DNA from: Chloroflexota bacterium
GTDB lineage: Bacteria > Chloroflexota > Dehalococcoidia > FW602-bin16
Length of the DNA: 64,000 nt
Assembly: GCA_004297765.1 (NCBI GenBank)
Contig: SCTZ01000200.1
Coordinates: forward strand, 1-64,000
Direction: 5' to 3'
A program made the position numbers and the translations under genes. Below the pieces are notes generated by a model. The model made no database searches and was not told the origin of the DNA. It saw only the letters and a program-made list of their open reading frames with translations. Of the stretch, positions 3,655 through 60,520 are shown piece by piece. Position 1 is the stretch's first letter. Each line of letters opens with the position of its first letter.

Positions 3655-4180
3655 GTCTGTCCACCTCCTCGTCTTCCCTCCTCTGATCTGGCTCAGCCGT
3701 CTGACTAAGCCGTGAGCCTCGGCCCATTCAGCCAGGACCACCTATAGCATGATAGGCTGCTCTTGGCCGGCTATTCGGCCAGAGGAGAACATCGAGCATG
3801 ACCCTGGTCTTTTACAAATGAGCATGTGGCATGCCACGTTACGAGAGTTGGCGCTGTGTGAATGACGCGTATCTGGCTGATCCGTCCTTCCGGGGAAGGA
3901 CTGATCCGACCGAACCGCACGTTCTCGCCTGGCGGATCCTGGCAGCATCGTCTCTCACAATTATGACCAGGTTTCAGCTAGTCGTGAATCATCCGGAAGC
4001 CAGAGGAGGTGCGTCAGAGGCGGCAAGGGCAAGCCGTCTACCTGGCCTGCCCTTACGATCGCAGAAACTGCGTGCACGTGAAGCGCGCGGTTAGCATCAC
4101 GCCTCAAACGCCGGATCGCATGCTCTTCGGAGCGAACTCGGCTGTTTGAGAGCCTGCAGCTACCGAGGCTGGTTGTCATC

Positions 4181-20461: not shown

Positions 20462-20532
20462 CTCGCCGAGCTGGAGCTCGGCGTTCCTAGCAGGTCGGCC
20501 CCCTGGGAACGCCGAGCCCCAGCTCGGCGAGG
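20462..20532. repeat. Long intergenic palindrome (about 27-bp arms)
   Basis: CTCGCCGAGCTGGAGCTCGGCGTTCC...GGGAACGCCGAGCCCCAGCTCGGCGAG, arms differ at one position. Confidence 0.8.
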
Positions 20533-20683
20533 ACACTGTCGCGCGCCTGTGCAAGACCTCGTGAATTGCCATACAAAGCCCGGCTAAGTCGTCGGCGAAA
20601 AGCAGGCCACGAAGCCGGCCCTATGTAGTATAATTTGGGGGTTAGGGGACGGTGGACCAATCCCCAGCCCCTAGCCCTTAGCG

Positions 20684-20732
20684 GTACTTTGTCATTCTTC
20701 CTCGCCTTAGGCGAGTCAGAATGACAAAGTAC
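20684..20732. repeat. Near-perfect 49-nt hairpin containing TTTGTCATTCT, 19 nt upstream of the DUF3501 start
   Basis: GTACTTTGTCATTCT-tc-CTCGCC-tta-GGCGAG-tc-AGAATGACAAAGTAC. Confidence 0.8.
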
Positions 20733-20751
20733 GGTTAGGAAGGATCGATTA

Positions 20752-24559: not shown

Positions 24560-25024
24560 ATGACGCCAGAGGACCGCGGTGAGCTCATCTGTATGAGTCC
24601 GATCGGAACGGTGAAGAACGACGTGAACGAGCCCAGGCACGAGGGATGGTCCGAGGTTGTCTCACAGATCGTCCTCCGCTCGGAGCTAGAAGAGATGCTC
24701 GACGGCGTCGACCAGTTCTCTCATCTCGACATCCTCTTCTGGCTGGATCGTCTGCCCAAGCACCACTTCACCAAGCTCCATCCCCGTGACCGCCAGGACC
24801 TACCTCTGGTCGGCGTACTGGCCACCCGAACGCAGTACCGTCCGAATCCCATCGCAGTGACCACAGTGCGGCTCCTGGCCAGGCAAGGGACGACACTGAC
24901 CGTCAAAGGACTGGATGCCCTGAACGGCACGCCGGTTCTCGACATCAAGCCCTACGTGCCGCTCTACGAGCCGTCCGAAGGCGTCGTGGTCGCCGAGTGG
25001 GTCCACAGGATCCAACCGTACTAG
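24560..25024 (+). CDS. trmO: tRNA (N6-threonylcarbamoyladenosine(37)-N6)-methyltransferase TrmO-like (TsaA/YaeB family)
   Basis: MSPIGTVKNDVNEPRH, HLDILFWLDRLPKH, GVLATRTQYRPNPIAVTTVRLL, GLDALNGTPVLDIKPYVP. Confidence 0.88.
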   Translation: MTPEDRGELICMSPIGTVKNDVNEPRHEGWSEVVSQIVLRSELEEMLDGVDQFSHLDILFWLDRLPKHHFTKLHPRDRQDLPLVGVLATRTQYRPNPIAVTTVRLLARQGTTLTVKGLDALNGTPVLDIKPYVPLYEPSEGVVVAEWVHRIQPY

Positions 25025-25131
25025 TGCTGTGTTGCTCGTGATCTGACGGGCAAAGACATGCGGATCGGTCGGATCGGTCCGATCGGACTGATCGGTCGGA
25101 TTCGCATCAGTTCAGCAGTCACAGAGCATTA
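25022..25131. repeat. TA-flanked palindromic element, copy 1
   Basis: TA-GTGCTGTGTTGCTCGTGATCTGAC...GATCGGTCCGATCGGAC...CATCAGTTCAGCAGTCACAGAGCAT-TA; same left and right ends as the copy at 49319-49447. Confidence 0.8.
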
Positions 25132-48910: not shown

Positions 48911-49321
48911 ATGTTCAGACGTTTCTTGCGACGATCGAGGCAGCAGCGCGGACAGAGCCTGGTCGAGTTCACTCTGGTTGTCCCCTTGTTGCTGCTATCG
49001 TTAGTTGGGATTAGCGATCTGGGGCGAGTGATGTACTACTACGTCGCTATCTCCAACGCCTCGGTGGAGGGCTCGCGGCAGGCTAGCAATCCCCTAAGCA
49101 CCGACACGGATATTCGCAACGCGGTGCACGACGAAGCCTCGCCCCTGATCGAGATCGCCTTCGGCGATATCATGATCACGCCCACTCCGATCCGCACAGA
49201 GGGCCAGCCCGTCTCCGTGACGGTAGTCTATCGCTTTGCCGCCGTGACTCCGCTCGTCAACCGGATGTGGAGCGGAGGATCGCTGAACATCCAGAGCTCT
49301 ACCACAATGATGGTGCAGTAG
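48911..49321 (+). CDS. TadE-like pilus-assembly-type protein
   Basis: RQQRGQSLVEFTLVVPLLLLSLVGISDLGRVMYYYVAISNASVEGSRQAS. Confidence 0.9.
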   Translation: MFRRFLRRSRQQRGQSLVEFTLVVPLLLLSLVGISDLGRVMYYYVAISNASVEGSRQASNPLSTDTDIRNAVHDEASPLIEIAFGDIMITPTPIRTEGQPVSVTVVYRFAAVTPLVNRMWSGGSLNIQSSTTMMVQ

Positions 49322-49447
49322 CGCTGTGTTGCTCGTGCCCTGACAGGCGAAAACGTGTGCACCCCCCCGAATCCGACCGATCGGTCCGATCGGACCGATC
49401 GGTCGGATTCGGGGGGTGCACATCAGTTCATCAGTCACAGGGCAATA
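49319..49447. repeat. TA-flanked palindromic element, copy 2
   Basis: TA-GCGCTGTGTTGCTCGTGCCCTGAC...perfect 42-bp palindrome GAATCCGACCGATCGGTCCGATCGGACCGATCGGTCGGATTC...CATCAGTTCATCAGTCACAGGGCAA-TA. Confidence 0.85.
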
Positions 49448-60409: not shown

Positions 60410-60520
60410 TTTGTCATTCTGAGAGCCGCAGCGCGAAGAATCCGCACCCCACGACCCGCGTGCTGTACGGGGTCCGGATCTTTCGACCTGCTCGCCTCAC
60501 AGTAATGGCGAGGGGTGCGG
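60410..60520. repeat. Intergenic repeat of the TTTGTCATTCTGAG...GCGAAGAATC type plus adjoining inverted repeat
   Basis: TTTGTCATTCTGAGAGCCGCAGCGCGAAGAATCC; CCGCACCCC...CTCGCCtcacagtaatGGCGAGGGGTGCGG. Confidence 0.6.

Follow-up and report, generated by a model that had tools for sequence, protein, structure and literature searches.

The gene trmO in the window, the 64,000-nucleotide stretch of DNA analyzed here, ends in TAC TAG, and its stop codon provides the left TA of a short palindromic element (Table 1). As the first-pass annotation described, this element lies between two TA dinucleotides and starts at the trmO stop. Both of its ends fit one 25-base pattern, the end pattern, read in opposite directions (25022-25046 on the plus strand and 25107-25131 on the minus strand), in agreement with the inverted termini reported earlier. 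The pattern occurs four times in the window, where shuffled sequence would give 0.00 occurrences, and the repeat of the core occurs 12 times, with 0.06 expected. When aligned, the C-terminus of TrmO falls near the end point of its homologs. The recurrence noted at 49.3 kb proved to be a second copy, which separates two TadE-like genes, sits at the first one's stop codon and is flanked by TA at 49319-49320 and 49446-49447. The degraded third copy was absent from the first-pass list. In copy 2, the core (49352-49422) forms an almost perfect palindrome (CACCCCCCCGAATCCGACC...GGTCGGATTCGGGGGGTG), which sets it apart from the other copies; template switching may have corrected an imperfect hairpin there. 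The window also contains self-complementary repeats at 20462-20743 and 60410-60499, which match other repeats of the genome over part of their length.

Table 1. Coordinates of the elements and neighboring features; positions refer to the window unless a locus (L) is named.
Feature	Position	Strand	Remarks
trmO	24560..25024	+	154 aa, intact; TrmO_N = residues 25-135
Left target TA	25022..25023	+	Supplies T and A of the TAG stop of trmO
MITE copy 1	25024..25129	+	106 bp, no ORF
Left terminal inverted repeat GTGCTGTGTTGCTCGTGATCTGA	25024..25046	+	0 mismatches to end pattern
Period-9 (GATCGGWCS)n palindromic core of copy 1	25059..25102	+	
Right terminal inverted repeat ATGCTCTGTGACTGCTGAACTGA	25107..25129	-	Minus-strand reading; 2 mismatches to end pattern
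Right TA of copy 1	25130..25131	+	Putative target-site duplication
MITE copy 2	49321..49445	+	125 bp, enlarged core palindrome
Degraded third copy	3862..3939	-	Inner part only
TGTCACCCTGAGCCGCAGCGAAGGG-type core copy	L094 (contig C141) 1526-1358	-	
TGTCACCCTGAGCCGCAGCGAAGGG-type core copy	L220 (contig C54) from 1071	-	
Second MITE family copies	L149:831-956, L037:863-988, L094:164-289, L111:677-811		And others

The host genome is a draft of 5.6 Mb in 256 contigs, with an estimated contamination of 9%. The first-pass annotation had held that the idea of an insertion element would fall if this genome contained no further copies. A first DNA search with the element returned 59 matches, and the end pattern was found 115 times (51 + 64 matches), while a reversed control pattern was not found at all (0 + 0). 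A profile alignment of the fetched copies resolved 72 non-redundant places, at least one end being present in 63 and both ends in 45. The family consensus consists of GTGCTGTGTTACTCGTGATCTGA...TCAGTTCATCAGTCACACAGCAC, bordered on each side by TA, around a period-9 (GATCGGWCS)n palindrome, and the lengths of the copies vary in steps of about 9 bp that correspond to the number of GATCGGWCS units. Short, dispersed, multicopy, free of ORFs and bounded by terminal inverted repeats, these sequences have the properties of miniature inverted-repeat transposable elements (MITEs). Pairwise identities range from 69 to 95% with a mean of 80% (17 ungapped copies), which indicates that the family and its burst are old.

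The copies are also mostly TA-flanked, as the earlier reading anticipated. At the ends, TA is found in 35 of 55 cases on the left and 32 of 53 on the right but at only 2.7% of window positions, and the commonest context of the flank on both sides is CTAG. About 40% of the ends now lack TA, which fits decay but weakens the claim of a duplication at individual sites. Elements of the IS630 and ISY100 (Tc1/mariner) type duplicate a TA target upon insertion (PMC2170065), and IS630 prefers TA within CTAG (Tenzen and Ohtsubo 1991, cited in PMC2170065). The TA target and the CTAG preference are found in the copies described here, which differ from these elements in the lack of a transposase gene. None of the 45 copies with both ends lies within a called gene, as called by a simple codon-usage script rather than a standard gene finder; of the 84 CTAG sites in the window, 63 are within genes. 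Gene 3' ends are the usual setting, with 10 copies between convergent, 32 between co-directional and 2 between divergent genes.

For 24 of the 63 copies, the neighboring gene ends exactly at the terminal TAG of the element, and on the left side this is true of 17 of the 18 genes that read inward. The stop codon coincides with the edge of the element because TA followed by the first G of the element rebuilds TAG. The frequency of stop codons is above that for any TA (p = 4e-5). However, 21 of the 67 CTAG, GTAG or CTAC sites in the window that would not disrupt a gene are themselves stop codons, and relative to this background of 31% the comparison gives p = 0.15 for all 63 copies and p = 0.04 for the 45 copies with both ends. 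A special targeting of stop codons beyond the choice of CTAG/xTAG was therefore rejected, and target choice together with purifying selection suffices without an additional mechanism. Among the called genes of the window, TAG is the commonest stop (29 TAG, 17 TGA and 5 TAA), a preference that looks atypical of GC-rich genomes.

The proteins adjoining the elements, which we take to include homologs of PheT, GrpE, ribosomal protein L9, ScpA, Mrp, AmtB and others, have C-termini that look complete. Further evidence comes from three paralogous genes for substrate-binding proteins, each of which ends in ...LAPGY TAG. From the TAG onward, two of them continue into an element and the third into plain sequence, so that the latter constitutes a paralogous empty site. 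The two elements are 77% identical, which is within the general range of the family, and the genes are 62% identical. Judged from these sequences, the paralogs suggest that two independent insertions took place at the same stop codon. The earlier proposal that the element entered at a stop-codon TA without damage to the gene is thus upheld by the intact trmO, by the many copies at TAG stops and by the paralogous empty site.

The location of the copies at gene 3' ends could also be explained if the hairpin itself were functional, for instance as a transcription terminator, an mRNA stabilizer or a REP/BIME-like element, and had been selected there, with mobility being secondary. Folded as RNA, the consensus forms a single long hairpin of -70.9 kcal/mol. 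It lacks a U-tract, however, and the pattern of substitutions shows no sign of selection on pairing. Double changes that keep a pair numbered 8, where 8.6 were expected (p = 0.66; 17 copies, so the power is limited), and one-sided changes broke pairs (88) as frequently as they kept them (76). Without an excess of compensatory changes, the hairpin is explained by its origin rather than by later selection, and a selected RNA hairpin is not supported within the limited power of the 17 copies. A search of the window against Rfam yielded no match above the gathering score. Moreover, that the copies start exactly at TA/CTAG is easier to reconcile with transposition than with a functional hairpin. 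This alternative is consequently improbable.

Still less credit can be given to a REP-like element moved by a Y1 transposase of the IS200/IS605 type (RAYT). Short palindromic repeats outside genes, a high copy number and the existence of standalone cores are all in its favor, and REP and BIME sequences are likewise palindromic repeats found 3' of genes. REPs, however, are only 20-40 bp long and carry a GTAG or CGTC tag on one end only (PMC3733652), whereas the element of about 106 bp is symmetric, with inverted ends of about 25 bp, TA on both sides and a resemblance of the ends to DDE-type IS630 elements. An origin as a MITE of an IS5-type element (IS427 group) that duplicates TA or CTAG would agree with CTAG as the commonest flank, and IS5-group elements may use TA/CTAG-type sites too, but it is extremely unlikely given that the ends resemble those of IS630 elements, at both ends and just outside the IS630 transposases.

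Based on the current evidence, the family very probably represents non-autonomous MITEs of the IS630 (Tc1/mariner-type) family. The first-pass annotation had guessed a Tc1/mariner/IS630 affiliation, and transposase-coding IS630 elements with matching TA-flanked ends were indeed encountered in other genomes of the phylum. When 251 genomes of the phylum were searched with the end pattern, two besides the host genome had matches. In one genome (G577), an end with 1 mismatch in 20 to that of the family is followed directly inside by a decayed ORF with an IS630-like helix-turn-helix. This ORF is a weak match to the N-terminus of IS630 from the host genome (E = 9e-4) and falls just below the cut-off for Pfam HTH_23, and it has no IS630 match in NCBIfam. 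Intact homologs from G542, G402 and G412 were used for family assignment instead. The transposases of G542 and G412 match NF033545 (IS630) with E-values of 1.8e-40 and 1.9e-61, respectively, and the elements in all three genomes have TA-flanked ends with 3-5 mismatches in 20. Among random 170-mers, only 2 of 3000 came within 5 mismatches of the end. G542 additionally contains a short element of its own, 107 bp long, which combines the same type of end with a different core. In G542 and G577 together, three of the four ends found start at the stop codon of a gene-like ORF.

The expectation of an autonomous IS630 element with matching ends was thus confirmed for other genomes of the phylum, but none was seen in the host genome with the end-pattern search. 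The three IS630 elements found in the host were rejected as partners since their ends differ, and L094 was rejected as an autonomous copy because it contains another palindrome and no transposase. The relatives compared with the host genome belong at closest to the same class. Other TA-flanked families of the host genome adjoin copies of the MITE at a shared TA.

The following course of events appears plausible. An IS630 transposase acting in trans would have excised units of about 106 bp by cleavage at both ends and integrated them at TA, which would thereby be duplicated. This would have occurred in an old burst, and the autonomous partner may since have been lost from the host genome or is unsampled there. 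As G is the first base of each end, an element that enters a TAG or TAA stop at its TA would restore TAG, whichever strand the stop is on. Such insertions would leave the protein unchanged and survive, while those within genes would be purged by selection. This provides a simple rule for how transposons can be tolerated in gene-dense genomes.

Among known elements, the one most alike in kind is RUP of Streptococcus pneumoniae, a 107-bp element with about 108 copies and a proposed mobilization by IS630-Spn1 (PMC2229807, PMC3049150). The two share their size, extragenic location, TA target and ends resembling those of an IS630-family element (PMC2229807, PMC3049150). In contrast, their sequences are unrelated, RUP copies are highly conserved rather than 69-95% identical, and in the present family the matching transposase-bearing elements were seen only in other genomes and the core is a period-9 palindrome. 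The Correia/NEMIS elements of Neisseria are also short, TA-ended and hairpin-forming, with inverted repeats of 24-26 bp (PMC2229807, PMC3049150). They share these general features with the MITE family but differ in sequence and core, and one Correia size class often lies within genes, which the MITE family does not. The family itself is therefore new, but its kind is already known from RUP/IS630-Spn1, and this type of MITE is now extended to an uncultivated lineage, probably of the Chloroflexota, as weakly indicated by the relatives of TrmO.

The unusual part of the family is its palindromic cores, which seem exchangeable. One point that sits less comfortably with the MITE interpretation is the regularity of the core, which exceeds what a pure substrate for transposition needs. 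The same type of end surrounds at least three unrelated palindromes, namely (GATCGGWCS)n, a TGTCACCCTGAGCCGCAGCGAAG-type palindrome (contigs C141 and C54) and GGGCGGGCAGAGACGCCCGCCC (G542). At least two copies in the host genome combine the ends of the family with a TGTCACCCTGAGCCGCAGCGAAGGG-type palindromic core. Conversely, a search of 393 genomes of the class for (GATCGGWCS)n identified three positive genomes including the host, and in two genomes from other families of the class the tracts are mostly intergenic and lack the ends of the family. These two genomes are G019 and G022, and their standalone hairpin tracts include L161:1596-1626, L170:1017-1056 and L173:1008-1038. No relevant publication emerged from a literature search for the core sequence. 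IS630-type ends might serve as a carrier for exchangeable cores, which could themselves be independently mobile and repeatedly captured by MITEs; we regard this as possible but rather doubtful. Shared and seemingly exchangeable cores raise the question of how MITEs acquire their interiors.

A second and much younger TA-flanked MITE family, with near-identical copies, is present as well. Between its two TAs it reads GTGTTCGACCACA...GTGGTCGAACAC and contains a TCATTCTGAGCGCCGCAGCGCGAAGAATCC palindrome, which resembles the alternative core of the C141 and C54 copies. Members of this family are repeatedly found directly next to copies of the first one, with a CTAG in common. A third MITE, beginning with (A)GTGCGTCGTTCC... 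after the TA, was observed in L094 (minus strand, about 1361-1180) and L180 (1372-2507), and its ends match those of an IS630 element of the host genome (contig C227) whose transposase is split over two frames.
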